A stretch of 64,000 nt of DNA from Bacteroidetes bacterium HLUCCA01 (lineage in GTDB: Bacteria > Bacteroidota > Rhodothermia > Balneolales > HLUCCA01). How positions within the stretch are numbered: the stretch's first letter is position 1; the number at the start of each line of letters is the position of its first letter. The translations under genes and the position numbers were made by a program. This document shows, one piece after another, positions 1-17,714 of this stretch. The notes beneath the pieces are model-generated. The model saw nothing but the letters and a program-made list of their open reading frames with translations, did not search any database and was not told the DNA's origin. Location of the stretch: NCBI GenBank assembly GCA_001314545.1, contig LIHN01000021.1:186001-250000 (forward strand), read 5' to 3'.

Positions 1-1959
1 ATTGCTGCCAGTTGTGAGTCCCTCACGCGTCACAATATATTCAGAGATGGTGGGGTAATTATGAAATGCTAAACGGACTTGTTCTGAGGCCCAAAAAACT
101 AGAGGTTGCCCGGGGATTATTAGAAAATCATCGTCGCTAGCAGAGAATCTAATGTCGCTTTTAGGATTTTTGGCGGCACTTAATAGAGCCCGGTTCTTCT
201 CGTCTTCATTTTTCCCTTCAGTTAATCTTATAAATTGGCCTTTTAGGCTTGGGTTTCGATTATTTGACAGAACAAACGCAGTCGTTGAAACAACCTCTCC
301 ACCGATAGAGTCAAATGCCCTTTCACCTAATTGCGCCATAGAAAGGATGCTGCAATTAGTCAGGATGTTAGAACGGATCGCCTCGTACCTTGGTGCGAAC
401 ATCCAGCCTTGCATCGTGATCATCGCTACATACCCATCACCAACGGCAAGTTTGGCGTTTCGGAGGATAAAGGCTTGGTATAAGTCGTACTTGCCGTCAA
501 CGAAACTGTTTTCAAGCCAAGCTTGAAGATTGTCATTTAAATCCGCCTTTTTCTTATACGGCGGATTGGCAATCACTACATGGTATTTCGGGCTCAGGTA
601 ATCGGCCTGCCGCAGGGCCTGTAGCACCTTCTGATGGGTCATGCTGATAAACATCTGCCCGGAGACGTTTTTTGATTCCAGAATCCTGAGCATGCCGTCC
701 ACGTCGGTGACATCCGGCTGGATCAGGGACCCGAAGTTGTCGGCCTCTTCGAACTGGCGCAGGGTGGTTTGCAGTGGCGCGGTGAACAGGTCGCGCCCGA
801 CAAAATCCATGTAATCCTTCAACTCATTGCCGTCGAAGTGGACGTTCTCCAGCACGCAGATGTTCGGCTTGACGCCCTTGTTGAAGAACCGGCGCTGCTT
901 TGCGCGGGCCTTCATGGTGAGGGCAAAGGCCGCCAGCTCCCCGGCGCGTTCGTCTATCTCGATACCGTAGAGATTGTTCGTGAGGATCTTCTCCGGGATC
1001 TCGGCAGGCTCGTAGCCCTCCTCCTCGTAGATGGCATAGAGCAGGTCAAAGGCATAGGTGAGCATGTGGCCGGAGCCGCAGGCCGGGTCGCAAATCTTGA
1101 TCTCTTCCGGCTTGGCGATGCGCAGAAAGTCCGATTCGGCCTGTTCGGGCTTGATGTAGTAATCCATTCGCTCAACCAGCTTTGAGCCAGGGCGGTTGAG
1201 CAGCCACAGACGGCCGAGGGAGTTTTCCACCAGGTAACGGACGATCCAGTGCGGGGTGAAGAGCTGGGTGGCGGCGGGAATGTTCTCGGGCGTGATCTTC
1301 TTGTTCTTCTTCAGGCCGTCGAACACCTCGTCCTTCTTCTCGGAGATGTAGAACTGGTAGAGCCAGCCGATCACCTCGACATCCTCGCAGGCATCCGGTG
1401 TCATCGCCTCGCGGGTATAGGCAAGGATGGAGTTGCCCGAGAGCAGATCGTCGGGCATCAGCAGTTCGGTGTAGTCGTCGATGCGCTGGAACAGGAACGG
1501 CATGGCCTTGTTCCAGTAGTTGCAGGCGGCCACCACCAACAGGCGGTAGGCCTCGCCCTGCGGGTCGCGACTGGGCGCTTTGCCATCGAGCAGTGCGAAG
1601 ATCTGCTGACGGACCTTGTCGTGGACCATCTCTTCATCGATGTGGCCCATCTTGGCCTCGGCCAGAATCTCAGGCTGGAACTGTCCCTCTGAGGGCGACA
1701 CCACGCCGATGCGGGTGTAGCGGTTCACGTCCATGAAGCGCAGGGCGCAGAAGCGGTTGAACCAGATGTAGGCCACCCGTTCGATGACCTGTTCCTTGCC
1801 GTGCCCCTTGATCGCCTCTTCGAGCTTTTTGACGGCCTCGGCACGTTCACGCCGGGCGGCGCTGTTATCTGCGAGCACCAGCTTCAGTTTGGCAGAGACC
1901 TGCTCCAGCAAGCTGCGCCGGGCGAACTGGGCGAATTTTTTTAGTTTTGCTGTTTCCAT
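1..1959 (-). CDS. pglX: BREX adenine-specific DNA methyltransferase PglX, N-terminal 653 residues (cut by window edge)
   Basis: This frame stays open from an ATG at 1959 to the window edge and encodes 653 residues. PglX is the site-specific N6-adenine methyltransferase of BREX; it marks self DNA and is needed for phage exclusion. The AdoMet-binding motif is visible as CDPACGSGHML (about residues 292-302) and the catalytic motif as IANPPY (about 463-468), with the spacing usual for this family. The sequence ends in TREGLTTGSN, typical of the stretch leading into the target-recognition part, so about half of a usual 1100-1200-residue PglX is missing off the edge. The ATG directly follows the TAG of the 66-codon ORF, suggesting translational coupling. 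The catalytic part (about 600-1959) is clearly richer in G+C than the distal part (1-540), which suggests a mosaic gene. Confidence 0.93.
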   Translation of the reverse strand, partial: METAKLKKFAQFARRSLLEQVSAKLKLVLADNSAARRERAEAVKKLEEAIKGHGKEQVIERVAYIWFNRFCALRFMDVNRYTRIGVVSPSEGQFQPEILAEAKMGHIDEEMVHDKVRQQIFALLDGKAPSRDPQGEAYRLLVVAACNYWNKAMPFLFQRIDDYTELLMPDDLLSGNSILAYTREAMTPDACEDVEVIGWLYQFYISEKKDEVFDGLKKNKKITPENIPAATQLFTPHWIVRYLVENSLGRLWLLNRPGSKLVERMDYYIKPEQAESDFLRIAKPEEIKICDPACGSGHMLTYAFDLLYAIYEEEGYEPAEIPEKILTNNLYGIEIDERAGELAAFALTMKARAKQRRFFNKGVKPNICVLENVHFDGNELKDYMDFVGRDLFTAPLQTTLRQFEEADNFGSLIQPDVTDVDGMLRILESKNVSGQMFISMTHQKVLQALRQADYLSPKYHVVIANPPYKKKADLNDNLQAWLENSFVDGKYDLYQAFILRNAKLAVGDGYVAMITMQGWMFAPRYEAIRSNILTNCSILSMAQLGERAFDSIGGEVVSTTAFVLSNNRNPSLKGQFIRLTEGKNEDEKNRALLSAAKNPKSDIRFSASDDDFLIIPGQPLVFWASEQVRLAFHNYPTISEYIVTREGLTTGSN

Positions 1960-2160
1960 CTATTTAGGCTCCTCCGGGGCTGCAACGGCCAGGCGGGTTA
2001 CCGGCCACTTGGGGAAGTTTTCATTCCATTTGTCCAGATTTACGACATGACAGCTTGTGGCCAGGGCCTGGACCCAGCGGCGTGATGCTTTGCCCACTGG
2101 CAGCTCCTGTTTCAGGCCGGTGAAGACCGTGAGGTTTCTCAGTTCAAGACGCTCAATCAT
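1960..2160 (-). CDS. 66-residue ORF between brxC and pglX, possible remnant of an AAA ATPase gene
   Basis: The start overlaps the brxC stop (ATGA at 2157-2160) and the TAG stop abuts the pglX ATG, so the frame is kept as a translational bridge in the operon. The first residues, MIERLELRNLTVFTGL, resemble the usual opening of RecF/SMC-like AAA ATPases that sometimes sit between brxC and pglX in other BREX loci (family knowledge, from memory). No Walker A or other ATPase motif follows, and the rest, which includes DKWNENFPKWPVTRLAV, is not recognised. The simplest reading is an in-frame internal deletion that left the two ends of a larger gene or gene pair. A genuine small BREX protein is also possible. 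Confidence 0.55.
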   Translation of the reverse strand: MIERLELRNLTVFTGLKQELPVGKASRRWVQALATSCHVVNLDKWNENFPKWPVTRLAVAAPEEPK

Positions 2161-5100
2161 ATTTGAATCCTTTTCCCTTTGCGGATTTCATCCAGTAGTG
2201 CATCACGCATGGAGTTCAGATAGCGCTCTACGTCGGACTCGTCAGCCAGCCAGGCTTTGTCGAAGGTTACCCGTAAGGAGCGACTTGGGACGTACTGGAT
2301 GGGTGCTATGGTCTGGGATGGCCGGTTTGCTGATGAACCCAAATCGTCAGCCTGCGTGTTAGCCGGTTGATCGGGTATGGGTTCGTGTTCTGGGGTAGTC
2401 TGGGCCCAGGTGGTCATCCGCGACAACAAACGTTGGTACTCGGATTCCTCAAAACGTCGCCGTGTATCCCGTATTACTGCAATTAATGTTTGGTCTGCAA
2501 TTTGCGTGCGAAACTGATCAAAGGGATGTAGCAGCTCCTTTTTTTGCGATTCACTGAGCATACCAAACTCATCCATACCACAAAGCCGATCTTTCAGTAG
2601 ATCAATGGAGTTTTTGGCGTTGGAAATCTCACGCTCCAACTGGGATCCGATCATTTTTTGTAACGTTACCACCTGATTGCGAACTTGCTGCATACGGTCA
2701 CCTTTGAAGCAAGTGGGGTCGTTCAGGGCCTCTCCCAGAGCCGCAGGAGTATTCGCATCGGGTGTTTCTTCGTTGGTTGCATTGGGGTATTCCTCACCGA
2801 TGTAGGAGAAGTTAGCCTCCTGTTTCTGCATGAAGGCCCTGGCCTCGTCGTAAATTGCTTTTTGAGGACCGCTCATGAACGTACGGATAGGGTCCACAAC
2901 CGATTCTTTCAAATCCAGCAAGGTATCATGTTCTCTGCTAAATTCGGTCAAAAACCAAGTATACGGTTTGCCTTGGTGGGTTTCCAGTTTGGTAATGACG
3001 GGATTCAATGCTCGCAGGAATGGGTATTGCGAGGTTTCGGCCACCAGAATCCGTAGTTCCTGGATAAGCTGTACCAATGCTGCGGCGGTGTCTTTTCCAA
3101 GCGCTTTGGCTTCGTTTGAGTGGGGGGGCGTGTCGAAGAAGTCTTCATAGAACTCTTTAAGGGCACGGATTTGCGATGCTGTAAATTCCATTTGAGGATC
3201 CAGTACCACGTTACTATGTCCGTGGGTGTTTCGCAGCGCCCGTTCCAGTACCGATTCTTCGAGCAGGTTTCCATCTGAGCGTACTTCCACTTTCCCCCGG
3301 GCGCATATTTTGGCCAGAGTACATAGTACAGCAGCATAGGGCCAACCGTAGGGTTTACGTTCAAACTTCTCTAACAGCCCTTTGAGCGTGGTGCGAACAC
3401 CGCCCCTACTATTGCTTTGAATAAAGGCGAATAATTCCTGTTCCGATTCTGGTACTGTAGCAGCATCATTTCCAAAGAGCCCGTCATCAGCGTATTTCAG
3501 ACATTTTGTAATATCATTCTCTGTGTACGTTATGCCTCGTAGCATCCGCAAGTTAGGGTAGGTACGCGCTATCAGTTCATAAAACCCTTTCAGAATTCGG
3601 GTTTGCGGATCTTCAGAGCCGGTTTCAATATCCGCTCCTGCCACCAGAAGCTGGGCCTTACTTAACAGGATCTTTACACGTGTTTTAAGCTCCGCATAGC
3701 GTTCCTGGTTCTGGAAGCCTTTGTCGGTGAGTATCCGTCGTACGGCATCCTGTTGTGTGGAAGAAAACGTTTGTCGCACATACTTTTCGGTACGTTTGTA
3801 CATTAGCAGGTCCCGTACCAAGCGTTCATCCGGTGGAAGTATGACCAGCAGTTCGTCACGGCCCATGGTTTGCATTCGCAGGGTGTCTTCCTTATCTGCG
3901 TTTTCATGAAATGGACTTATTACATGAATAGCCAGTTCATATTCTTTGCCGTGCAGGCGGTCGTCCAGTTTCTTTGAAAAAGGGTAATCCTGTCCGTTTT
4001 CGGTGTACCGGATTTTGTTGTGTTTGATAACGTGATCAAAAATGATCTTTTCAAGTTCATTGGCTACATCGCTGGCATCGACCTCCGTGTTTTTGATTTC
4101 CTGTTCAACGTCTTTTTCTTCGTCGGTCAGAAAGCCAAATAAATCGCCATTCCGCTGGATATAGGTTTGCTGTTCAAGCAGGTTTAAGGCTTGTTCTACC
4201 TGTTTTTTTAAAGCTGGAATATCCTTACTGAAGCCATCCAGCATGAGAATACACAGGTTGCGTAGCGTTGGCTTGAACTCATTTACATATTTAACCAGAA
4301 AAAGCACTTTAAGCAGACGAACGGCAAAGGGGTTGTTCAGATGATTTTCAGCCTGAAGCACGGCTCTTTGAATATTGGCCTTCAGAGCGGTTCGAATACC
4401 TTCAAACATGAGGTCGAAGGTTGCCAGTTCACCAATTGCATGGTTACCAATGTGGATGGCTACCTGCTGAAAAACTCCCAGCATAGAGCGTTCTCCTACC
4501 GAGCTGTGCTTCCCCTCGAATGCATTGTGTTGTGACAAATTCTGTATGGCAGACTGAAACAACGCAAACTGGTAGGGTACAAACGGGTAGCTTGCTACGA
4601 AGTGATCTACATCCTGGAAGTTCTTGTACTCTCGTGAACCGTCTGAAAATCCGAACAGGGTTTTGAAATTATTGGATTGTTCCGAATACAACGTTTGTAG
4701 TTTCGCAACTCCCAGTTCTGTTTTTGACAGAAGGCGCTTTTGAATGACTTCATCCACATTTTTGCTGGTGAGTTTCATCCGACCGGGACTTCTGCCGGTT
4801 TCGCAGGCAAATCGTGCTTTAATTTTAGAGAAGTCATTGGTGCTGTGCGATCCTCCTTGCCCTATCACGCTGTCAAGGTCTTCCTGGGAAGTGACCACAA
4901 TCCACGAGCGTCCTTTACATTTGGTAGCAAGACTTTCCGCGACCGTTTGCAGATTGGTCATCAATTTGACATTATCCGCGATATATTGACCAACCTCATC
5001 AACAAAGAAATTCAAGCGAAAATCGGTTCCTTGTTGATTGATGTAAGCATTAACCTTTTCAGCAAAATCTTCGATAGATACGCGGTAGTCTTTACGGTAG

Positions 5101-5768
5101 CAGTCCAGAATACCTATGGCTTCACTTTCCTCGGAACCGGATACGCGGGCATAGGCTTTGGCGATGTTTGTTGACTCCAGCAGTGCTTGCTCACGGCCCC
5201 GCTGCCAGGGTTTTCCTGCTACAGACTCATATTCTGCCATAAATGAAGCGTAGAGTCCCCGACTGTCCAGATCTCGTTCGAATTGTGCGATATGACCTTG
5301 TTTACCGTAATAGCCGCAGGTTTCATCAAAGACTTTTACAAAAACAGCCAGCAGGGCATCGGTCTGCGTTTTACTGATTACATCCGCTTTTTGATCGATG
5401 TTGAAAAGGATGCTTCTTGATGGAATAGCCGCCGCTCTTCTGAGTTCACCACGTAGAATTTCATTGTCACCGCACTTGGTTAAAAAGATGTCGAGTGCCG
5501 GTACACCATCCAGTTCTTTGTTTTCAAGTAGTAGCGCCAGCATCTTAAGTAAATGGGATTTCCCGGAACCGAAAAATCCGGACAGCCAGGCGCCGTTTAC
5601 GTCTTTTGCGGAAGTATATGCTCCGAGGAAAGCTTCCAGGCGCTGTTCTACTTCATTCGTGAGCACGTACTCTTCAACTTCTAAACGCAGGCTTGCGTTA
5701 TCATCGGCTTTAATGACTCCCTCGATGGGGCGGTCAACGGGTTTTGTAAAAATTGAGTTCAGCGTCAT
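2157..5768 (-). CDS. brxC: BREX P-loop ATPase BrxC
   Basis: This is a 1203-residue protein of the size and sequence type of BrxC, the large ATPase of BREX thought to act with PglX, PglZ and BrxB on DNA. A Walker A motif GSGKSHLLKML lies near residue 67 inside LSGFFGSGKSHLLK, and a Walker B-like FFVDEVGQYI lies near residue 255. The N-terminus (SIFTKPVDRPIEGVIKADD) is characteristic of the family. The C-terminal third is rich in charged helices. It begins 14 nt after the brxB stop and overlaps the following 66-codon ORF by ATGA, so it is in the middle of the operon. The only oddity is the rise in G+C over its last ~200 bp, continuing into pglX. Confidence 0.95.
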   Translation of the reverse strand: MTLNSIFTKPVDRPIEGVIKADDNASLRLEVEEYVLTNEVEQRLEAFLGAYTSAKDVNGAWLSGFFGSGKSHLLKMLALLLENKELDGVPALDIFLTKCGDNEILRGELRRAAAIPSRSILFNIDQKADVISKTQTDALLAVFVKVFDETCGYYGKQGHIAQFERDLDSRGLYASFMAEYESVAGKPWQRGREQALLESTNIAKAYARVSGSEESEAIGILDCYRKDYRVSIEDFAEKVNAYINQQGTDFRLNFFVDEVGQYIADNVKLMTNLQTVAESLATKCKGRSWIVVTSQEDLDSVIGQGGSHSTNDFSKIKARFACETGRSPGRMKLTSKNVDEVIQKRLLSKTELGVAKLQTLYSEQSNNFKTLFGFSDGSREYKNFQDVDHFVASYPFVPYQFALFQSAIQNLSQHNAFEGKHSSVGERSMLGVFQQVAIHIGNHAIGELATFDLMFEGIRTALKANIQRAVLQAENHLNNPFAVRLLKVLFLVKYVNEFKPTLRNLCILMLDGFSKDIPALKKQVEQALNLLEQQTYIQRNGDLFGFLTDEEKDVEQEIKNTEVDASDVANELEKIIFDHVIKHNKIRYTENGQDYPFSKKLDDRLHGKEYELAIHVISPFHENADKEDTLRMQTMGRDELLVILPPDERLVRDLLMYKRTEKYVRQTFSSTQQDAVRRILTDKGFQNQERYAELKTRVKILLSKAQLLVAGADIETGSEDPQTRILKGFYELIARTYPNLRMLRGITYTENDITKCLKYADDGLFGNDAATVPESEQELFAFIQSNSRGGVRTTLKGLLEKFERKPYGWPYAAVLCTLAKICARGKVEVRSDGNLLEESVLERALRNTHGHSNVVLDPQMEFTASQIRALKEFYEDFFDTPPHSNEAKALGKDTAAALVQLIQELRILVAETSQYPFLRALNPVITKLETHQGKPYTWFLTEFSREHDTLLDLKESVVDPIRTFMSGPQKAIYDEARAFMQKQEANFSYIGEEYPNATNEETPDANTPAALGEALNDPTCFKGDRMQQVRNQVVTLQKMIGSQLEREISNAKNSIDLLKDRLCGMDEFGMLSESQKKELLHPFDQFRTQIADQTLIAVIRDTRRRFEESEYQRLLSRMTTWAQTTPEHEPIPDQPANTQADDLGSSANRPSQTIAPIQYVPSRSLRVTFDKAWLADESDVERYLNSMRDALLDEIRKGKRIQI

Positions 5769-5782
5769 CGTGTCTTGATAGG

Positions 5783-6394
5783 TTAAACTTCGTAATGATA
5801 GATATTAAAGGCGCGATAGTATTTATCGTCTTGCAGTCTCCCGAATAGATTGAGTGAGGCCCCGGCTTCAAGCGAATGGTTATAGCCCCCGGGAAAGAAC
5901 ATTACGGTTGGTTTGTCTTTTGCAGTACTTTGTAAGTTGTTCAGAATGTTATGGGATCTGATATAGGGAAAAACTTCACCGACCCCGGTCAAAAACAACA
6001 TTTCATACTCTTCGGTGTTTAGCTTTGCTGCTATAGCAGGGACTACATGTGTTTCGGAGTCCAGAACCCCCTGAAGTAATTCGAATAATTCCGCTTTTTC
6101 GTAGGTCGCTTCCTCTGTAATAATCTGGTCCCAAATTTGACGTTCTTTCAACAATTCAATAGTAAGATCGTACAGGTTGATGTCGATGACCCGGATACCC
6201 TGCTGATGGAGACGGTTTTTTAGTTGGCGCTGGACGCGTGACATATCAACGGCTTCTTCCGGTTTGAATGGACAAATGAAAAAAGGCACTTCGTTTCCAA
6301 GTCCCTCCATTTTCAAGAAGCGGTTGCTTGAAAGTACGTTTAGCAGATGCTCAAATCGCTCTTTTATTGGTTTATTTTCAGAAATGTTTGTCAA
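5783..6394 (-). CDS. brxB: BREX protein BrxB (DUF1788)
   Basis: The 203-residue protein matches the DUF1788/BrxB family in length and in recognisable stretches: PFFICPFKPEEAVDMSRV near residue 37, VIDINLYDLTIELL near residue 75, and a C-terminal PTVMFFPGGYNHSLEAGASL followed by a YYRAFNIYHYEV ending. BrxB is a small core protein of type I BREX that associates with BrxC and PglZ; its chemistry is not established. It lies 12 nt after brxA and 14 nt before brxC, so the three are one transcription unit. There are no membrane segments or signal peptide, so it is cytoplasmic. Confidence 0.95.
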   Translation of the reverse strand: MTNISENKPIKERFEHLLNVLSSNRFLKMEGLGNEVPFFICPFKPEEAVDMSRVQRQLKNRLHQQGIRVIDINLYDLTIELLKERQIWDQIITEEATYEKAELFELLQGVLDSETHVVPAIAAKLNTEEYEMLFLTGVGEVFPYIRSHNILNNLQSTAKDKPTVMFFPGGYNHSLEAGASLNLFGRLQDDKYYRAFNIYHYEV

Positions 6395-6406: not shown

Positions 6407-7006
6407 CTAAAGATTGTAATCGAATATAGGAAAGAATGACAGTTCTTCTGGTCTTTGCTGACGTATTAATTCAAGTAAATTGTTGCTCATCATAGATGGT
6501 AGAATAATATTATCTGTGCTTAGAAGACCCGCCTCCCGGAGCATTTTAAACAGGACCTGGCGCAGTTTACTGCGTGTCATTGGGGTTATTCTTTCGATCT
6601 CAGGATGCCACTGTGATTTGCGATTAAAAAACGAGTCGAAGTCTTCATGATGGAGGTCGGTTTTTAAAGAAAGGTAGCGTTCTCTCAGTACTTCGCTTGC
6701 AAATTCTGCAATGAATGGGTAACGCCTGCAAATAGAAATCCAAATCAGGTAAGCCTGGTCGGTTTCATTTGCAAGAGCCAAAAATTCAAGTTCTTCCTCA
6801 CGTAATGTAACTAATCGGGAGAAGACTTCGCGATATACGCGTTTCAATGATGTTGCGGTGCGGGTTTGCAGAAGGTTGGATTCGATCGTTTGTATTCGAA
6901 CTATATCCCAATCTTTGACTTCAAGATACCGTGTACACAGCTTGACCGACTCTGCATGGAAGAGTCCGCCAGTGGAAAAGGCCATGCTGTAGGTTTCAGG
7001 CTTCAT
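6407..7006 (-). CDS. brxA: BREX protein BrxA (DUF1819)
   Basis: This 199-residue protein matches DUF1819/BrxA, a small helical DNA-binding protein and the usual first gene of type I BREX operons. The family pattern is seen in MAFSTGGLFHAESVKLCTRYL near the N-terminus, the ICRRYPFIAEFASEVLRERYL helix in the middle, and a winged-helix-like tail around MTRSKLRQVLFKMLREAGLL. A 234-bp gap separates it from the Hsp70-like gene upstream, so it probably has its own promoter (see 7055-7083). The start ATG at 7006 has no strong Shine-Dalgarno sequence, which is common in Bacteroidota. Confidence 0.95.
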   Translation of the reverse strand: MKPETYSMAFSTGGLFHAESVKLCTRYLEVKDWDIVRIQTIESNLLQTRTATSLKRVYREVFSRLVTLREEELEFLALANETDQAYLIWISICRRYPFIAEFASEVLRERYLSLKTDLHHEDFDSFFNRKSQWHPEIERITPMTRSKLRQVLFKMLREAGLLSTDNIILPSMMSNNLLELIRQQRPEELSFFPIFDYNL

Positions 7007-7240: not shown

Positions 7241-8719
7241 CTACACCCACCTTGCCGCACTGACATCAAACAGGCCGGTCGGTGTTTTGAGGTCTTCTTT
7301 GCGGTAGAAGTCTTCCGTCAGTTGGGTAGTGATTTCGTCTGACATCGCCAGCGATAAGCCAAGTGGAACGATCAGAAAGTCCATCTTTTGCTGCCAGTTT
7401 GCCGGGTGCACGCTTTCGGATATCTGTAACTCTCGAATGGGTTGCACATGTACATGTGTTTGTTCGGCCGTGAAGCTGTCGCGTACACCATTATCATGAA
7501 TGAGTATCCGTTGCAGATAGCGTTCTGGATTCGGGTCTGCAATGGGCATAAGTGCTCCACCTCCGTAAATATAGCAATAGGTGTCTTTGTAGATGGCAGT
7601 GGCGTTGAGCTTTTGTGAACGAAAATATACCTGACTGTTGAACATCCGGTAGACCTGCCGGTTGATATTCTGTTGAACCCAGTTAAAGGCCTTCGTGTAG
7701 GTTTTACTTCGTTGAATGCCGGGCTTGCTCAGGTTTTTTAGCAACTTCTCGCGAAGGTCGGTTAATCGCATATCAGCCCCGAACATCTGTAAACCTATGT
7801 CGTTGGATGCAACCATCACCGATTTGGAGGCAAGGTAGGTGAATGTGTTGTTTGCCTCTACTTTGAAGAATGATACATCCGTACTGCCTCCGCCGATATC
7901 CAGTGCGAGGTAGTATTTGTCTTTGGTTAGTTTATTGGTCCTTACCAGGAAGTGTAATCCAGCTGCAGTTTCAGGAAAAACCGAAATACGTTTAGTATCA
8001 AGAAGTGCATTCCAGTCGCGTTGATCGACTTCACGAACACTCTTGAGATTGAAAGCGGTAAGCAGGTTCTCGAATATGCGGTCCACCTCAAGCTGCAGTT
8101 CCCCGGCAGTCCATGTTTCAATTCCGGTAATTTCAGACAGCTCTAAAGCCATGTAGAGTATCTGCTGAAACTTGCGCTTTCGCAGTGCATTATAGCGCTG
8201 CTGATACTCGGTTGGCACTCCCATCTGTATGGTCCACTCATAGGTAAGACTCTCATCTTGAGATGCCTGAAACCGCGCTAAAAAACCTTTCCGCTCCGTT
8301 TTTTGCTTCCCAGGTTTAAGATCGTTGACGATGTACCCTTTTATCTTTCTGATGACATCGGCCAGATACACAACGGCCAGGAATTCGGGGGTATAGGGTT
8401 TAAAGCGGCTGGGGTCGTATTTGGGTTGCGAAGCCTTGATGTCAAGTCTAAACTCTTCGTCTTCGGCAGACGCTATTTTAAAGAAACTGAACGTGAAACG
8501 CGCATCATCGAGCTGACGTCCATAGATGAAGTGTTCGTCTGCTGTTTCGGAAATCACGGAAGGCAAAAGGTGGGCGTCTAAGCCATCAGCCAGAGGATTC
8601 AGCGGAACAAAGTGATACTCAGCCGGCATATTGGCTGCCCGTTTGAAGCGCACACAGGCTTTCGTCTGGTAGGTTCCGAAATCAAGTCCTATTGATATGG
8701 GGAATGTTGATCCGCTCAT
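7241..8719 (-). CDS. Hsp70/actin-fold (ASKHA) ATPase linked to BREX
   Basis: The 492-residue protein has the nucleotide-binding motifs of the Hsp70/actin superfamily: phosphate-1 GLDFGTYQTKAC near residue 11, phosphate-2 LDIGGGSTDVSFF near residue 273, and an adenosine-type IYGGGALMPIA near residue 390. There is no clear Hsp70 substrate-binding domain after the ATPase fold, so it is an Hsp70-like ATPase rather than DnaK. Its ATG overlaps the stop of the SNF2 helicase by 4 nt (ATGA at 8716-8719), so the two proteins are translationally coupled and probably form a complex. Their position directly before brxA suggests an accessory role in the BREX system (inference). It is not one of the six standard type I BREX proteins. 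Confidence 0.85.
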   Translation of the reverse strand: MSGSTFPISIGLDFGTYQTKACVRFKRAANMPAEYHFVPLNPLADGLDAHLLPSVISETADEHFIYGRQLDDARFTFSFFKIASAEDEEFRLDIKASQPKYDPSRFKPYTPEFLAVVYLADVIRKIKGYIVNDLKPGKQKTERKGFLARFQASQDESLTYEWTIQMGVPTEYQQRYNALRKRKFQQILYMALELSEITGIETWTAGELQLEVDRIFENLLTAFNLKSVREVDQRDWNALLDTKRISVFPETAAGLHFLVRTNKLTKDKYYLALDIGGGSTDVSFFKVEANNTFTYLASKSVMVASNDIGLQMFGADMRLTDLREKLLKNLSKPGIQRSKTYTKAFNWVQQNINRQVYRMFNSQVYFRSQKLNATAIYKDTYCYIYGGGALMPIADPNPERYLQRILIHDNGVRDSFTAEQTHVHVQPIRELQISESVHPANWQQKMDFLIVPLGLSLAMSDEITTQLTEDFYRKEDLKTPTGLFDVSAARWV

Positions 8720-11700
8720 ACGACCTCCACGAGGGCTACAATACGTTCGCTCATCCGGGTACTTATTTGGGATGCTTTCAATAACGCCATTTTGTCATCC
8801 AGCTCTTTTTGGAGCTTGTCGATTTCAGCGCGTAGAATGGTCTCGATACCTGCTTTTTGCATGATGCGCTTATCCCGTACCTCCATTTGCCAGTCATAGA
8901 ACTCCTCGAATTGACGAGCGTACCGCCCACGTGCGGATTCCAATCGGATACGTTCCTCCTGTTCGACTTCTTTGCGTTTCTTTTCCAGAGCCAAGGCTGA
9001 TGCGTAACGTAGCGCATCGGCAGCTTCAGGCGGTATAGGCATGGGGTCACTCAATGAGGGCTTGCTCGTTTGGCAGTGCTTGAATAGCATTTCAGCATCT
9101 TCATCCGATAGGATGATGGGTTCGTCACTATTAAGGTCAGAGACGAAGGGGATGAGTAGCTGCTGGGTACGCCGTTGACCTAACCACTGTTTTTCTATTT
9201 CCAGCTCGTTTAATGCGAGGAGGTAAAGTCCATGATTAAGGGTGAAATCCTGTATGCCGTCTCGTTCGATCTTGAAATTGAAGGCGTTGTATAAATTTAT
9301 TTCTTTGTCTTTGAACACCTGCGTGGCCGCGTATACCAGTGGATGGTAAGGACTCACATAATGCAGGGTACGGTTATGAAAGGCTTTTTCACTGTCAAAG
9401 CACAGGTGTAGTTGTTTTTGCCTGTGTAGTTCTATGAGAAAATCGTGCAGCATGAGTTGAAGCTGCTGTTTTAAACGCGTTGGGGCAGAACGGGTGACAT
9501 CTTTAAGGTAGTATTCCAGTCGTTCAACGACATGTTTGTCCAACTGTAATATCATTTCGCTGTCGGAACGATGAACAATGTTTATCTGGGTAAATTCATG
9601 CCTGATGAGTCCCTCAACATAGTTTACCAGATTGGATGGGGTTACATATCGTTCGTTCTGAACTATTTTGTTGATTTCGTCCCGGAAGTAATGGTCTTGC
9701 ACCATCGCATCGGTCAATTCAGTCTCAAGTACTTTTATATTCTCCCGCTGATTGACTAATGCCGCTGCGTGTTGGTCGAGCTGGTCTTTAATCTGCTGTG
9801 GGGTCAGTTTTTGGCTGTATAGTTTTCTTTCCAGCGCTTCAATTTCTTCAAAGGGATTAGACTCACCTTCGTCAGACAGAATGGCTTCCAGTACGCCTAT
9901 GCTTTCCTCGAAAATGCGGATTTTCATCAGAAGCCGGTCGTATACCTCTTCCTCAATGGACCCGTGAACTACCATGTTGTAGATATGGATGATGTCCGAT
10001 TCCTGACCGATACGGTCGATTCTACCGATGCGCTGTTCCAAGACCATGGGGTTCCAGGGCAAGTCGTAGTTTACCATGGCATCGCAGAATTGTAAATCGA
10101 TGCCCTCGGTACCTACGCGGGAGGCCAGTAACACGCGGGTTTCAGCATCATGCTGAAACTGACTGAGCAGAGCGGAGCGCTCTTTGGGGTTGTCACCGGT
10201 AATGACGGCTGTTTTGAGGCCTTGGTCTTGCAGGCGATGAGCGAGGTAGTACAGCGTTTCCTTGAACTCGGCAAAGACGATAATCTTGTTCTGCTTCTTT
10301 ACGACCACCTCTTGGATGATTTTATTGAATTCATCGAATTTGCTATCTGTTTGGGGCCAGCCTTTCCCTCGTTTTTTCAGATAAGCTGGCAAACAGCTGG
10401 CCATAGTTCGGGATAGCGTAAGTATAGGTAATGTACGGCTATGGTGGTTTTTATCGTCGGCAGCTACTGCGTTATATTCCATATACAATGCATGCTCTTC
10501 CCGTTGCATTGTGGCGGCTTCTTCCGGAGTGATTCGTACCAACGCCTTGTATGGGTTTCGTATTGCTGAAACCCCTTCAACGTCTTTCTTTTTAGTACGA
10601 CTGAACAGGTAGTTGATGGAGTTCAATTCGGCCAAATCTCTCTGAATAAGAACCCTGTTTTTAATGGAACTATCGCCGGATTGCATACGACTAATGACAC
10701 GATTAAACAATGGATCATCTTTGAGTAAATCGCTCAGTAAAGCAGTTTCAGGTCGTGAATAGTCACCGTAGGAGAACTTCTTTGTTACGGTTGAGTCAAG
10801 AAGTTCTTCCAGTACATCACGGGCATTGGCTCCCCTGCTTAGTTCGTTCTGGGCCCGTATAAACGGTCTGTTAATACTGACGTCATTCTCAAAATTTTCA
10901 CTATTGAAATACCGGACGGGATCGAGGAGTTTTAATAAATTGAACAAGTCGTCAATCTTGTTATTTATAGGAGTAGCCGAAAGGAACACTACATGACTGG
11001 CGTTGGTGATGAGCGGCTCAATAGCTTTGTATCGCTTGGTTTCCCGATTTCGTATCGCCTGAACCTCATCACAAATGATCAGATCAAATTGTGTATTCAG
11101 TTCATTCGTGAATTTTCGAAGATTTTTATTTGCAGAAAATTTGTCATAGTTAATTACCCCGAAGAATTCATCCGGGGGCATCTGTAGCGAGAAAGTTTTA
11201 ATTAGCTGCTTTGCATCAAACTCCTGAAATGGAAATCCGAATTTTTCCTGCATTTCCTGTTCCCACTTCGGGATAAGGGTCTTTGTGCAAATAACCAGCA
11301 CTTTTGATATGAGCCCTCTGGCATAGAGTTCAAGCAGAATATGACCAGCCTCGATGGTTTTTCCGAGCCCAACCTCATCGGCAATGAGCAGTCTTTTTTG
11401 CTGGTAGTTGAGCAACTTTACCAGGGGAATAAACTGGTGGGGTTTGAATAGCGTTTTTGAGGCTTTCAGGCTGGAGATGGTATTATCAACGGTGTTCTGG
11501 ATCTTGTGGTAGATCGTGTTCAGTACAAAATCGTTGTAGCTGTAGAAACTGGAATTCCCGAGGTTTGCCCATGGATCCGTTTCTTCTTGCTGGAAAGTGA
11601 GTTCATCAGCGCGAAGCATACTTGTGCCGGTACGACCTGCTGTGTAGGTAATTCTGACCATTTGGCTGGATCCATCCCCGCCGAGAACTCCATCTATGAT

Positions 11701-11754
11701 GCCTTTATTCTGTGGATTAGCTATCTCTTGAACGCGGTCGTTAACCTTGAACAT
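8716..11754 (-). CDS. SNF2-family (RapA-like) helicase/translocase linked to BREX
   Basis: This 1012-residue SF2 protein starts with a small beta-rich region (residues 1-55) like the N-terminal tandem SH3-like part of RapA-type translocases. Motif I is ADEVGLGKTIEAG (about residue 125), motif II is IICDEVQAIRN (DEVQ rather than DEAH, about residue 230), motif III is FLSATPINNK (about 258), and motifs V-VI are GTEGIDLQFCDAM and QRIGRIDRIGQ (about 558-590). The C-terminal 120 residues are predicted coiled coil. Such enzymes move along DNA or remodel protein-DNA complexes. It heads the defence module, about 200 bp after terS, and overlaps the Hsp70-like gene. DISARM and Dpd systems also use SNF2 helicases, but no other genes of those systems are visible here. 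Confidence 0.88.
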   Translation of the reverse strand: MFKVNDRVQEIANPQNKGIIDGVLGGDGSSQMVRITYTAGRTGTSMLRADELTFQQEETDPWANLGNSSFYSYNDFVLNTIYHKIQNTVDNTISSLKASKTLFKPHQFIPLVKLLNYQQKRLLIADEVGLGKTIEAGHILLELYARGLISKVLVICTKTLIPKWEQEMQEKFGFPFQEFDAKQLIKTFSLQMPPDEFFGVINYDKFSANKNLRKFTNELNTQFDLIICDEVQAIRNRETKRYKAIEPLITNASHVVFLSATPINNKIDDLFNLLKLLDPVRYFNSENFENDVSINRPFIRAQNELSRGANARDVLEELLDSTVTKKFSYGDYSRPETALLSDLLKDDPLFNRVISRMQSGDSSIKNRVLIQRDLAELNSINYLFSRTKKKDVEGVSAIRNPYKALVRITPEEAATMQREEHALYMEYNAVAADDKNHHSRTLPILTLSRTMASCLPAYLKKRGKGWPQTDSKFDEFNKIIQEVVVKKQNKIIVFAEFKETLYYLAHRLQDQGLKTAVITGDNPKERSALLSQFQHDAETRVLLASRVGTEGIDLQFCDAMVNYDLPWNPMVLEQRIGRIDRIGQESDIIHIYNMVVHGSIEEEVYDRLLMKIRIFEESIGVLEAILSDEGESNPFEEIEALERKLYSQKLTPQQIKDQLDQHAAALVNQRENIKVLETELTDAMVQDHYFRDEINKIVQNERYVTPSNLVNYVEGLIRHEFTQINIVHRSDSEMILQLDKHVVERLEYYLKDVTRSAPTRLKQQLQLMLHDFLIELHRQKQLHLCFDSEKAFHNRTLHYVSPYHPLVYAATQVFKDKEINLYNAFNFKIERDGIQDFTLNHGLYLLALNELEIEKQWLGQRRTQQLLIPFVSDLNSDEPIILSDEDAEMLFKHCQTSKPSLSDPMPIPPEAADALRYASALALEKKRKEVEQEERIRLESARGRYARQFEEFYDWQMEVRDKRIMQKAGIETILRAEIDKLQKELDDKMALLKASQISTRMSERIVALVEVV

Positions 11755-11954: not shown

Positions 11955-12515
11955 TCATTCTTTATACTTGGCAAATTTGGACCCTGATGTACTTGAAGCT
12001 ATTTTACGTGCAATAGCTTCGTTGACACGGTCGAGATGGTAGGAAAGACTATTCCCAAGATCTTCTTTGTGATTCGCGTCGTACTTTCCATGGAATTTCA
12101 GCATCCTATCCAACGCTTTTAGGGCATCATGAAGCTCAATCTCCACCTCCTGAATTACTACTCCGTCCGGCGTTGTTCGGGTCCGTTGCCGGAGTTTTTT
12201 TATGGTATGCAGCTTCGTGAGAGCTTCATCGGAAGTAATATCGATGGTAAAGTTACCCTTCGTATCGAATTTCAGAAATGGCTGTAGTGAAGCTCTGGCA
12301 ATATCTGAGAGTCGCGCAGTAGCCTCTTCAGACTGCATCGACATTTCATCAAGGCGTTTATTGATGGCGTCTCGAATGGTTCTTTTCTGCAGAAGCTCGT
12401 GAGCGGTAACCTTTGCTCGTTTTTTGGTGTAACCAGACCTTTCAGCGGCCTTTGCCCCACAAAAGTCTACCGTGTATTCCTGGATGAATTGCTTTTCTTT
12501 TGGCGTCATAGACAA
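11955..12515 (-). CDS. Phage-type terminase small subunit
   Basis: The 186-residue protein opens with MTPKEKQFIQEYTVDFCGAKAAERSGY, the helix-turn-helix pattern of the Terminase_2 small-subunit family (KQ-F--EY--D-NA--AA-RAGYS). A middle region of charged helices follows, with the family's RLSDIARASLQPFLKF stretch near residue 68. Small terminases recognise the pac or cos site and deliver DNA to the large subunit. No large subunit is found beside it; the next gene is the SNF2 helicase. Lone TerS genes are typical of PICI satellites, which use them to redirect a helper phage's packaging machine. The last residues (SGSKFAKYKE) are basic. Confidence 0.85.
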   Translation of the reverse strand: MSMTPKEKQFIQEYTVDFCGAKAAERSGYTKKRAKVTAHELLQKRTIRDAINKRLDEMSMQSEEATARLSDIARASLQPFLKFDTKGNFTIDITSDEALTKLHTIKKLRQRTRTTPDGVVIQEVEIELHDALKALDRMLKFHGKYDANHKEDLGNSLSYHLDRVNEAIARKIASSTSGSKFAKYKE

Positions 12516-12968: not shown

Positions 12969-14249
12969 CTAATTCGCAATTACGAGTCCCATGTCCTTGT
13001 GAATCATGTGGAGCCGTCTGTGTTGAAGTTCACCATCTCTGACCTTTTGCTGCTTGATGTATACTGACCTTTTGTCAATTCGATTGCCATTCCAGTCCAG
13101 CGCGGCATCGTTCCCAGTATCGATCAAATCTGCTATTACAAATGGTCGAAAAACAGATGTCATTAAGTGTGCATCCTGCTTTATCTGTTGGCTTTGCCTC
13201 ACGTCATTCAATCTTGGTTCCAGTTGCCAACCTTTTCTCAATCTGGTGTCAATGGTAACCTGTGATAGAAGGTGTCCGACTATCTGCAGCTCTTCCATAA
13301 GTTTGGTTAGTTCTTTGCTTACGTACTCGGTAACCTCATGCCGCAACTTCTGATTCTTTGACTCGACATTTTGTATGTAGTCAATCACCACATAGTCTAT
13401 TTCATGCTTTCGCTTTAAAACACGTATTTCACGCTTTATGTCTTCTATCTCTCGATTTCTGGATGTTATATAAAAGTTTAGAAGTAATCCCGAATCTACC
13501 ATTTCAATTCGTTCAAGTGTTTTTCTTGGACTATCTTCAAGTTGAAACCACGCTACTCGGTAGCCCTGCTTAAGCAGCTGTATTGCTTTGAACATGGCGT
13601 AAGTTGTTTTGCCATGGGAGCTATCAGCTATCGTGATTTCTACTTGCCCTCGGTATAATCCACAATCGCGATATATTCCCTCGTCAAGCCTTGGTATACC
13701 AAGAAGAAGTTTTGGTGATAGTGGGGCACTTCTTAGTCGCTTCAACATTAAATCACCTCTTTCAGCCACGTGATGTGTGGAGCTACTATTGATAGAAGAT
13801 ATCATTGTCGCTAAAGCATCAACCGCATCGTAACCGTCCATCTCTCGGGCTTTTACGGACAGTTCCGCTGTTTTGTAGACTACCTCTCTTCTCAGATATT
13901 GCCCTTGTAATTGATACAAACTTTGTTCTACTATACCATCGTGTATGCCCAAGGTTAGAGATTTCTCGAGGTAAGCTGATCCACCAACTGAATCCAACGT
14001 TTCGTCTTCTCTCAAGTTGGCAACTACCAAAGTCATGTCACAGTTTTTATTCGTATCCCAGGCGCGACGAATAGCTTTATATAGAGCTTTATTTCTTGTA
14101 TCGAAAAAGTGATTCTCCCCGGTCGATATCATCACTAATTCTGCAACCGAATCGGATAACATACACCCCATTAGAACATAGAACTCGAGCTCTTCGTTAA
14201 ACGGAGGCACAAGGTCACTATGGACGGAATTACCAAGAGCCTTCATCAA
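12969..14249 (-). CDS. DnaB-type replicative helicase of the element
   Basis: The 426-residue protein has the DnaB N-terminal domain (residues 15-120, with EFYVLMGCMLSDSVAELV and HFFDTRNKALYKAI) and a RecA-like C-terminal domain. The P-loop near residue 207 reads IADSSHGKTTYAMF, slightly off the usual G-x4-GKT because the first glycine is alanine. Walker B is YVVIDYIQNV near residue 290. Motif-rich stretches follow, with LSQVTIDTRLRKGWQLEPRL and a DVRQSQQIKQDAH segment matching the DnaB consensus S--I-Q-AD. It would unwind DNA at the element's replication origin. It overlaps the upstream replication-protein gene by 20 nt. Confidence 0.87.
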   Translation of the reverse strand: MMKALGNSVHSDLVPPFNEELEFYVLMGCMLSDSVAELVMISTGENHFFDTRNKALYKAIRRAWDTNKNCDMTLVVANLREDETLDSVGGSAYLEKSLTLGIHDGIVEQSLYQLQGQYLRREVVYKTAELSVKAREMDGYDAVDALATMISSINSSSTHHVAERGDLMLKRLRSAPLSPKLLLGIPRLDEGIYRDCGLYRGQVEITIADSSHGKTTYAMFKAIQLLKQGYRVAWFQLEDSPRKTLERIEMVDSGLLLNFYITSRNREIEDIKREIRVLKRKHEIDYVVIDYIQNVESKNQKLRHEVTEYVSKELTKLMEELQIVGHLLSQVTIDTRLRKGWQLEPRLNDVRQSQQIKQDAHLMTSVFRPFVIADLIDTGNDAALDWNGNRIDKRSVYIKQQKVRDGELQHRRLHMIHKDMGLVIAN

Positions 14250-15028: not shown

Positions 15029-15349
15029 TTACCTAATCGGTTTGATGTGACATTTTTCAAAAAACTCCATCATACCATCATAAGGGTAGAGGATTTTTTT
15101 TCCATGCTTCACAAATGGGATTTGCCTGGTATCACGAAGGTGTTGTAGCGATCCATCACTCCAACCGGTAAGTTCTTTAACCTCTTGTTTCGTAAAGTAT
15201 TCTTTCCGCGTAGCCTTGTGGATAAGTTCAGGAACGAGTTGCCGCATTGCCCGTTCAACAGCTTGTGATACAACTGAATCGAGTTCAGATTTTGTGGGAA
15301 TATAAGCTTGCATATCGAATAGCGTTAGTTTTGGATTCTGTTTTACCAA
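15029..15349 (-). CDS. Excisionase/AlpA-like helix-turn-helix protein
   Basis: The 106-residue protein carries a MerR/excisionase-type helix-turn-helix in its C-terminal half: YFTKQEVKELTGWSDGSLQHL, then a recognition-wing stretch IPFVKHGKKILYPYDGMMEF, the pattern of HTH_17 proteins. Such proteins act as excisionases or as activators of element excision (AlpA/Xis role), or as early regulators. It lies between the integrase block and the replication genes, the usual place for AlpA in satellites. About 60 residues of helical N-terminus precede the HTH, longer than a minimal Xis. An 80-bp A+T-rich stretch (15350-15441) separates it from the next gene upstream. Confidence 0.75.
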   Translation of the reverse strand: MVKQNPKLTLFDMQAYIPTKSELDSVVSQAVERAMRQLVPELIHKATRKEYFTKQEVKELTGWSDGSLQHLRDTRQIPFVKHGKKILYPYDGMMEFFEKCHIKPIR

Positions 15350-16226: not shown

Positions 16227-17486
16227 TTACAATCCGTTGTTGAATAACTTTTCCATTTCAGTATCGAGGCTTGTCTCATCGAAGCTCTTGAGGTACGCCT
16301 GCGTAATTGTGATATCGGCATGGCCCAACGCTTTGCTGATATTGTAAATATCCATACCTGAAGTACGTGCATAGTCTGCGAAGCTATGCCGGGCAACATG
16401 AAAGGATACGTTTTCTTCAATCCCTGCCAGCCCTGCCAGTATTTTTAGGTTCCTGTTTACGATTACATTCTTGCTGGATATCTGTGCCTTCAGAAATACT
16501 TCATCCGAGTAATCAAGCCCGGCATCAAGGATAGGAAACAGAAACTCTTCTTTGTCCGGGGTTACCGGTCTGTACTTGTCCAGTATGGTAAGGGCTGGTT
16601 TTAGTAGGTGGATATTCTTACCGGTGCCTGTTTTGCTCATGTTGTATTTCAATCGACCGTCTATAATATGCTTCCATTGAAGCCGTGCAATATCTCCAAA
16701 GCGGATACCGGCGTTGTAGAAACTAAACATGAAGGCATCCCGTGTAACATCAAGCCATGAACCAGGTGGTAAATCAAGAGTTTCAATCCCCTGGACCTGC
16801 TTATAGTATAGCCGGGCTTTGTCGGTGCGCTGCTTCTGTATAGGCTTGAATTTCAGGAATGGGTTCGTGTTGATCACGTCATCCAGAAGAGCTTGTTTAA
16901 AAATACGCTTCAGGTTCTTGAAGTGATTGTAAACCGTATTGGCTTTATTGCCGTGCTTCTTAACTTTTTCACCGTTCACGGTTATCATTCGGGGCTCCTG
17001 TAAGAAGTTCTGAAAGCCGTGCAATGTGTCGGCTGTAATTTCATCAAAAGGCACATACCCCTTACCCAAATAGCTGGTAAAGAATCGCAAAGTTACCTTA
17101 GTGTTTTTATAGGCTGATATCCGCTTGCTTTGAATCAGGGAATCGCAGAAGGCATTAGCGTACCCGAAAAAATCGAGGGCCGTACCGGATGCTGAAAGTG
17201 CACTTTTCACTTCCGTGATGCTTTTCTTTTCATCAGGCATATCCCAGACCGTTTCTTTTGCTGTCGCAAGGATATCATCAAGCCGGGCATTGATACTGCT
17301 GTGCCGGGGGTGGCTTTTGCGTACTGTTTGACTGGATTCATTCCATTGCTTTTCAGGTACTGAAACACCAGTTGAAACAATTCTGTACTTCCTGTCTTTT
17401 GTTATGCGCAAATAGACCGGCATTTCACCATTGCTTTTGCGTTTACGCTTAAGCAAGAAAAGCCTGAATGTGATACCATTGTACAT
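16227..17486 (-). CDS. int: Tyrosine recombinase (integrase) of the element
   Basis: This is a tyrosine recombinase of the Bacteroidota type, with an N-terminal arm-binding segment (MYNGITFRLFLLKRKRKSNG and PVYLRITKDRKYR), a SAM-like core-binding domain (about residues 95-190) and the catalytic domain. Catalytic residues are in place: Arg in NAGIRFGDIARLQW, Lys in YNMSKTGTGKNIHLL, the HVARHSFADYA box, and Tyr in LGHADITITQAYLKS. An upstream in-frame ATG at 17549 would add 21 residues, but these would be translated from two 11-bp direct repeats that look like protein-binding sites, so 17486 is preferred. It is the outermost gene of the element, beside the likely attachment site. Confidence 0.92.
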   Translation of the reverse strand: MYNGITFRLFLLKRKRKSNGEMPVYLRITKDRKYRIVSTGVSVPEKQWNESSQTVRKSHPRHSSINARLDDILATAKETVWDMPDEKKSITEVKSALSASGTALDFFGYANAFCDSLIQSKRISAYKNTKVTLRFFTSYLGKGYVPFDEITADTLHGFQNFLQEPRMITVNGEKVKKHGNKANTVYNHFKNLKRIFKQALLDDVINTNPFLKFKPIQKQRTDKARLYYKQVQGIETLDLPPGSWLDVTRDAFMFSFYNAGIRFGDIARLQWKHIIDGRLKYNMSKTGTGKNIHLLKPALTILDKYRPVTPDKEEFLFPILDAGLDYSDEVFLKAQISSKNVIVNRNLKILAGLAGIEENVSFHVARHSFADYARTSGMDIYNISKALGHADITITQAYLKSFDETSLDTEMEKLFNNGL

Positions 17487-17515
17487 GATTTTCAGTATAG
17501 ATTGCTGTTTCGGAA

Positions 17516-17538
17516 TAGGTACCAACGTAGGTACCAAC
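17516..17538. repeat. Two 11-bp direct repeats before int, candidate integrase arm sites
   Basis: TAGGTACCAAC occurs at 17516-17526 and again at 17528-17538, a 12-bp period, each around a palindromic GGTACC. Direct repeats of this size close to an integrase gene are typical arm-type or excisionase-binding sites; an operator for int is the alternative. Confidence 0.45.
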
Positions 17539-17564
17539 AAAATATACATTATCCTGTGTTAAGA

Positions 17565-17602: not shown

Positions 17603-17647
17603 ATAGCGTAGGGTTTTGGCATTTTTGACTATAAGATGCTTAGATTG

Positions 17648-17670
17648 TTCGAATCTTGGCGGGTGTACTT
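17648..17670 (+). other. Candidate attachment site: tRNA-like 3' half
   Basis: TTCGAAT followed by CTTGG and CGGGTGTA has the layout of a tRNA T-loop, T-stem 3' strand and acceptor 3' strand, but the sequence before it does not complete a cloverleaf. It is followed 7 bp later by a plus-strand terminator. This is what remains when an element integrates into the 3' end of a tRNA gene. No CCA is encoded and the partner half is outside the window, so the call is tentative. Confidence 0.25.
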
Positions 17671-17676
17671 GATAAA

Positions 17677-17714
17677 GCCCTGCATCCCAATAACTTACGG
17701 GTGCGGGGTTTTTT
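17677..17714 (+). terminator. Rho-independent terminator, plus strand
   Basis: A GC-rich stem (CCCTGCATCCC at 17678-17688 with GGGTGCGGGG at 17699-17708, G-T pairs allowed) is followed by six T residues. No plus-strand gene ends here now, so it probably belonged to the gene interrupted at the attachment site. Confidence 0.7.

Follow-up and report, generated by a model that had tools for sequence, protein, structure and literature searches.

SNF2 motors recur in many defense systems, and it is unclear how they are switched on. The locus described here, a 64,000-nucleotide stretch of the Bacteroidetes bacterium HLUCCA01 genome (contig LIHN01000021.1, positions 186,001 to 250,000; the window in the following), raises this question in a compact form: the gene for an SNF2 motor overlaps the gene for an Hsp70-like ATPase, and both stand beside a type I BREX. 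Do the two genes belong to BREX, or do they constitute a system of their own? On balance, sequence comparisons and predicted structures lead us to lean toward the second answer, in which the pair is probably an independent, self-contained and mobile two-gene defense module of Bacteroidota that acts alongside BREX rather than within it. It looks like an undescribed candidate defense system. As a minimal conserved pair of motor and ATPase that needs no larger system, it would make SNF2 switching directly testable with two proteins.

The locus and its carrier element

The features of the locus are compiled in Table 1. The coordinates of the two genes and the overlap of stop and start codon, as given in the original prediction, are exact to the base, and both reading frames are open over their full length. 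The pair had also been placed directly 5' of brxA; while the genes are indeed adjacent on the same strand, 234 nt separate the ATPase stop from the brxA start, and we therefore regard brxA as uncoupled from the pair. On its other side, 5' of the SNF2 gene, the pair is bordered not by BREX genes, but by a phage-like block with TerS, the DnaB-like helicase and the integrase. Promoter and terminator scans of the locus stayed at chance level.

Table 1. Features of the locus. Positions refer to the window unless they carry a prefix; C11 is the contig that contains it.
Feature	Position	Strand	Remarks
pglX, 5' part	1..1959	-	remainder left of the window; whole gene L003 6417-9959
brxC	2157..5768	-	PADLOC BrxC, E 0; NCBIfam BREX_BrxC above cut-off
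brxB	5783..6394	-	PADLOC BrxB, 5.4e-70
brxA	6407..7006	-	PADLOC BrxA, 1.7e-79; Pfam BrxA
Hsp70-NBD-like ASKHA ATPase gene	7241..8719	-	492 aa; predicted model and Foldseek
ATGA overlap of SNF2 stop and ATPase start	8716..8719	-	read as translational coupling
SNF2 (RapA-type) dsDNA translocase gene	8716..11754	-	1012 aa; Pfam SNF2-rel_dom/Helicase_C
TerS, phage-type terminase small subunit	11955..12515	-	Pfam Terminase_2, 1.9e-21
DnaB-like replicative helicase	12969..14249	-	Pfam DnaB_C/DnaB; related to phage helicases
Small HTH protein, AlpA/excisionase type	15029..15349	-	putative, read by eye from the sequence
Tyrosine integrase	16227..17549	-	NCBIfam XerD/XerC family matches
attR, 34-bp perfect copy of the tRNA-Arg(ACG) 3' end	17647..17680	+	
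attL, other 34-bp copy	L002:11628-11661 = C11:177628-177661		
Schlafen/AlbA_2 gene, pglZ, brxL	C11:178006-184417		left of the window, beyond pglX

The BREX genes and the pair share a 26.0-kb stretch (C11:177628-203680, from L002:11628 to window position 17680) with TerS, the DnaB-like helicase, the small HTH protein and the tyrosine integrase, and this stretch is flanked by 34-bp perfect repeats of the 3' end of tRNA-Arg(ACG). Its gene content is that of a PICI-like satellite, with an integrase, att repeats, a replication gene and TerS, and neither a capsid nor a portal gene was seen in its list of open reading frames. The G+C content falls from 0.53 in the host flanks to 0.46-0.47 in the cargo and 0.41 in the phage-like genes. 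Judged by these features, the stretch looks like a phage-satellite-type element with defense cargo, which would be mobile and dependent on a helper. In the two same-genus genomes used for an empty-site comparison, the tRNA is found on one contig and the right-flank gene on another.

This setting brings up the possibility, in our view unlikely, that the pair serves its carrier rather than general host defense, either by hindering helper or rival phages or by maintaining the DNA of the element in a ParM-like manner. Here, the pair is cargo next to TerS, and it recurs on a terminase-bearing viral contig (L074:454-11233), where a terminase-like gene and WYL-type regulators, by our reading of the sequence, precede the SNF2-ATPase pair; one of these regulators has homologs next to the pair in L040 and L047. 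Against this, most other loci lack a phage context in our survey of open reading frames, for which few phage queries were used. The fold of the ATPase, described below, also bears on this question.

The SNF2 motor and its ATPase partner

The SNF2 protein begins with an SH3/Tudor-like barrel, which is followed by the SNF2 core, an alpha+beta region, a long helical hairpin and a conserved C-terminal strand. Its predicted model (pLDDT 81) has RapA as the top full-length fold match (E 3.9e-35), which bears out the RapA-like start noticed earlier. The DEVQ noted for motif II is likewise present, as CDEVQ, in the window, whereas other family members have a DEAH-type motif. In an alignment of 42 members, K132, D229, E230, R575 and R578 are invariant, and the SF2 motifs I, II and VI are intact, as in an SNF2 translocase. 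We read the protein as a dsDNA translocase that is powered by ATP and belongs to the RapA/DrmD/BrxHII branch of SNF2 enzymes.

The top named profiles for this protein are DrmD, BrxHII, HmaA and DpdE, each of which it matches below the curated cut-off, if there is one. It scores 302.7 bits against the NCBIfam DrmD equivalog (cut-off 610), which leaves the residues past about 820 unmatched, 198.8 bits against DpdE (cut-off 500) and 185.5 bits against the RapA equivalog (cut-off 576); with 204 bits, the PADLOC HmaA profile also matches more weakly than DrmD. By these cut-offs, the protein is not a member of DrmD, DpdE or RapA. Instead, it represents a discrete subfamily. Against the profile of this subfamily, two members in 296 Bacteroidota genomes score 1,233 and 1,128 bits, and the next protein reaches 241 bits, with the caveat that the members scoring above 1,100 bits are themselves part of the profile. 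The helical hairpin (909-993) and the C-terminal strand have no sequence match among solved structures and are candidate docking sites.

The ATPase had been described as a protein with the characteristic nucleotide-binding motifs of Hsp70, but devoid of its substrate domain. This description is accurate: the motifs phosphate 1 (GLDFGT..TK), phosphate 2 (LDIGGGSTD) and adenosine (YGGGAL) are all found, and the protein stops before any substrate-binding domain (SBD). In Foldseek searches with its AlphaFold model (pLDDT 81, pTM 0.86), which contains no such domain either, the nucleotide-binding domains (NBDs) of Hsp70, DnaK and Ssz1 rank first (E 1.4e-10), with a similarity that is distant (TM about 0.4-0.56). 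The ATPase thus shares the nucleotide-binding fold of Hsp70 chaperones but not their other hallmarks, as its model lacks the SBD and no Pfam family passes its cut-off; it would be an actin/Hsp70-fold enzyme reduced to the nucleotide-binding domain. Likewise, no NCBIfam or PADLOC family covers it.

Conserved residues indicate that its active site is intact, as is that of the SNF2 protein. Among 42 members, D13, K20, K81 and the glycines 386-388 never vary. At least 40 members retain E250, D274 and D281, and 41 have T or S at residue 279 (35 T, 6 S). When the family profile is aligned to DnaK or FtsA, the alignment covers the phosphate-1 region only, and the equivalent of Hsp70 K71 is not located thereby. 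K20 lies seven residues past the catalytic Asp, the position that the phosphate-1 lysine also has in actin and ParM. This would fit a ParM-like role in the maintenance of the element and is a lead only; the closest fold, however, is the Hsp70 NBD and not ParM.

Distribution and obligate pairing

The original prediction had proposed to look for the pair in other genomes. A scan of 84,980 species genomes, one collection, with two short conserved ATPase peptide patterns revealed 46 further loci, a number from which divergent or solo ATPases may be missing, given that the scan began from two short peptides. Going by the record titles, nearly all of them belong to Bacteroidota; one is a contig of a Moraxellaceae metagenome-assembled genome and may be mis-binned. 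Clustering at 50% identity divides these ATPases into 22 groups. In 46 of 46 loci, the gene directly 5' of the ATPase gene encodes an SNF2 protein of the same subfamily, a recurrence of gene order that exceeds chance. The gap between the two genes ranges from -13 to +16 nt in all loci but L012, where, at the edge of a contig, 171 nt lie between the ATPase and a truncated SNF2 frame. The two proteins also share their history: their distance matrices correlate with r = 0.895, a value that was reached in 0 of 2000 permutations. Within the order, the pair is sporadic (3 of 129 genomes), and searches for it in plasmid and phage collections returned no matches. As no Pfam, NCBIfam or PADLOC entry names the pair and our literature search found no description of it, it is apparently an undescribed combination whose members always occur together in scattered Bacteroidota.

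Relation to BREX

The neighboring BREX comprises the six core genes of type I in order (brxA, brxB, brxC, pglX, pglZ, brxL). It is complete, for the left-hand pglX, Schlafen/AlbA_2, pglZ and brxL genes were found beyond the window. In addition to the six core genes, it has a Schlafen/AlbA_2 gene between pglX and pglZ, which encodes a 557-aa Schlafen/AlbA_2 plus HATPase-type protein (L003:4744-6417; C11:182744-184417). Schlafen RNases are common auxiliary effectors in BREX according to a survey from 2026 (PMC12839542), which contains no mention of Hsp70 or ASKHA proteins.

Could the pair nevertheless be an accessory set of this BREX, with the SNF2 motor and the ATPase feeding DNA to PglX and PglZ, a role that BrxHII may have in type 3 BREX? 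The pair adjoins BREX on the same strand and has a matching G+C content (0.463 vs about 0.465). Moreover, BREX-type genes occur near the pair in two of the 46 other loci: in L056, a BrxL gene lies 36 nt upstream, and L018 has a PglX-like gene. These, however, are the only two, and the order offers a similar picture. BrxC homologs are found in 8 of 127 genomes, and the pair is adjacent only in the genome studied here; in a second one (G025), BREX and the pair lie on different contigs, and the remaining six have BrxC without the pair. In this genome, too, brxA is uncoupled from the pair. We therefore consider an accessory role quite improbable.

A BREX subunit would co-occur regularly with the core genes, and on these co-occurrence data we reject the pair as one. 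Since BREX is rarely found near the pair and, within the order, adjoins it in this genome only, the pair is an occasional neighbor of BREX. The earlier view that it heads a type I BREX thus gives way to that of an independent system.

Gene neighborhoods

The 88 nearest neighbors of the pair matched 90 PADLOC families at E<=1e-30, compared to one family for 80 control proteins encoded in randomly chosen 20-kb segments, taken from 20 other genomes of Bacteroidota; PADLOC families are redundant, so that the 90 matches are not counts of distinct genes. By a narrow homology test, recognized defense genes lie within 10 kb of the pair in about 20 of the 46 loci, while the other loci are unscored or lie among housekeeping genes. 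The defense genes include type I, IIG and III restriction, McrBC, the PDC-S68 helicase (three loci), DpdF-like and PLD genes. In L015 (3404-6954), the ATPase even continues in frame into a Septu PtuA-type ATPase domain, and the gene overlapping the end of this fusion encodes a putative HNH nuclease (PtuB-like, by eye). In the sequence listing of L016, L022, L030, L042 and L044, by contrast, the neighbors are of the housekeeping type only, an indication that the pair can stand alone. None of the additional genes is constant across the loci.

These loci also bear on a further alternative, namely that the SNF2 protein recycles RNA polymerase like RapA as a housekeeping or stress-transcription factor, with the ATPase aiding its assembly or release and the defense genes being hitchhikers. 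The housekeeping-only neighborhoods are consistent with it, as is the first rank of RapA among the full-length fold matches. Yet the sporadic distribution within the order is unlike that of a housekeeping gene, and the carriage by mobile and viral elements as well as the enrichment of defense genes likewise argue against this explanation, which we judge to be improbable.

The idea of a defense module draws on the obligate pairing, the shared history, the discrete SNF2 subfamily, the defense-rich neighborhoods and the carriage on an att-flanked element; the housekeeping-only loci count against it, and the likeness of the SNF2 protein to defense helicases is also a likeness to RapA, a transcription factor. 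The original prediction had spoken of an accessory or independent defense module; genomic evidence supports this well, with the pair being independent rather than the head of a BREX. Two outcomes had been named that would speak against a defense module, a pair found mainly outside defense loci and one already named as a component of a BREX subtype. Neither is cleanly the case, for the pair is unnamed in the profile libraries and literature searched, and it has defense genes nearby in the loci counted above, the remainder being unscored or of the housekeeping type.

Several individual neighborhoods deserve a description of their own. In six loci (L026, L028, L031, L035, L036 and L037), a related third gene lies directly behind the ATPase; the only member tested (L026:11445-13004) encodes BspA-type leucine-rich repeats and is a possible sensor. 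PDC-S68 family helicase genes adjoin the pair in three distant loci (L013:11782-15489, L014:5141-8815 and L049:2235-6752). Convergent to the pair, L007:966-7785 (the same locus as L011) harbors genes for an 878-aa PLD protein and for a DpdF-like helicase of 1376 aa, possibly an unnamed defense operon. Lastly, a 404-aa gene behind the pair in L056 (7695-8909) codes for a putative Mrr-like restriction endonuclease, identified by eye (VECKDY).

Possible mechanism and comparison with known systems

How might such a module work? With their translation coupled, the SNF2 protein and the ATPase may associate during synthesis, presumably forming a complex. The ATP/ADP state of the ATPase might then be the switch that holds the translocase idle or lets it run, although we propose only tentatively that the ATPase switches the motor, or controls its loading or release as the original prediction had suggested. 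On invading DNA, the released motor may displace phage polymerases or other bound proteins, so that the infection stalls; its target would be phage transcription or replication, and in some loci, it might hand the DNA to a separate nuclease. Because no nuclease domain was recognized in either protein, the killing step in this scheme is a guess.

In eukaryotic SWI/SNF and INO80 remodelers, the SNF2 motor depends on a partner with the actin fold, the actin/ARP module. It is conceivable, if rather doubtful, that the pair follows their design, with a dedicated actin/Hsp70-fold ATPase gating an SNF2 remodeler that acts on invading DNA and docks different nuclease effectors (compare the ATPase-PtuA fusion). 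The likeness is one of design only: the pair is bacterial, its partner protein resembles the Hsp70 NBD, its motor is of the RapA type, and no HSA helix is evident. If the gating were true, the pair would be a bacterial counterpart of the way in which SNF2 and actin work together in eukaryotic chromatin remodelers.

Among defense proteins, DrmD of class 1 DISARM, BrxHII of type 3 BREX, DpdE and ArmA belong to the same RapA-like SNF2 branch and have a single N-terminal Tudor/SH3-like domain, with DrmD as the top PADLOC/NCBIfam profile for the motor of the pair. The locus has neither a DISARM methyltransferase nor DrmA, DrmB or DrmC, and its SNF2 protein has a constant ATPase partner. Such a partner also sets it apart from RapA, an SNF2 ATPase that recycles RNA polymerase and has the same full-length fold at about 18-19% identity. 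Judging from sequence, the motor thus belongs to a known branch, and the pair is a candidate member of the helicase-centered defense modules.

The only Hsp70-like defense proteins found in our literature search are those of CoCoNuT systems, where CnuD/Hsp70-like domains likewise provide a defense system with an Hsp70-like ATPase and other restriction genes lie nearby. These CnuD/NxD McrBC Hsp70-like proteins comprise an NBD and a substrate domain, possess degenerate Walker A-like motifs and have McrBC GTPases as partners (eLife 2024, PMC11090510), whereas the ATPase of the pair consists of the NBD only, has an intact active site and is partnered with an SNF2 protein. We also considered the PADLOC candidate PDC-M61, whose B protein is represented by a profile for an Hsp70-like ATPase; of the 42 pair members, 36 match it weakly. 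We rejected this identification, as the match reflects the generic phosphate-2 GGG motif and, in half of the Bacteroidota genomes, the profile also picks up proteins of the FtsA and DnaK types; PDC-M61A has no match in the genome studied here, G025 or G045, and none in the control genomes either. A different Hsp70-like ATPase that matches the PDC-M61B profile is encoded in L057 (718-2040), beside a 235-aa glycine-zipper-like reading frame.
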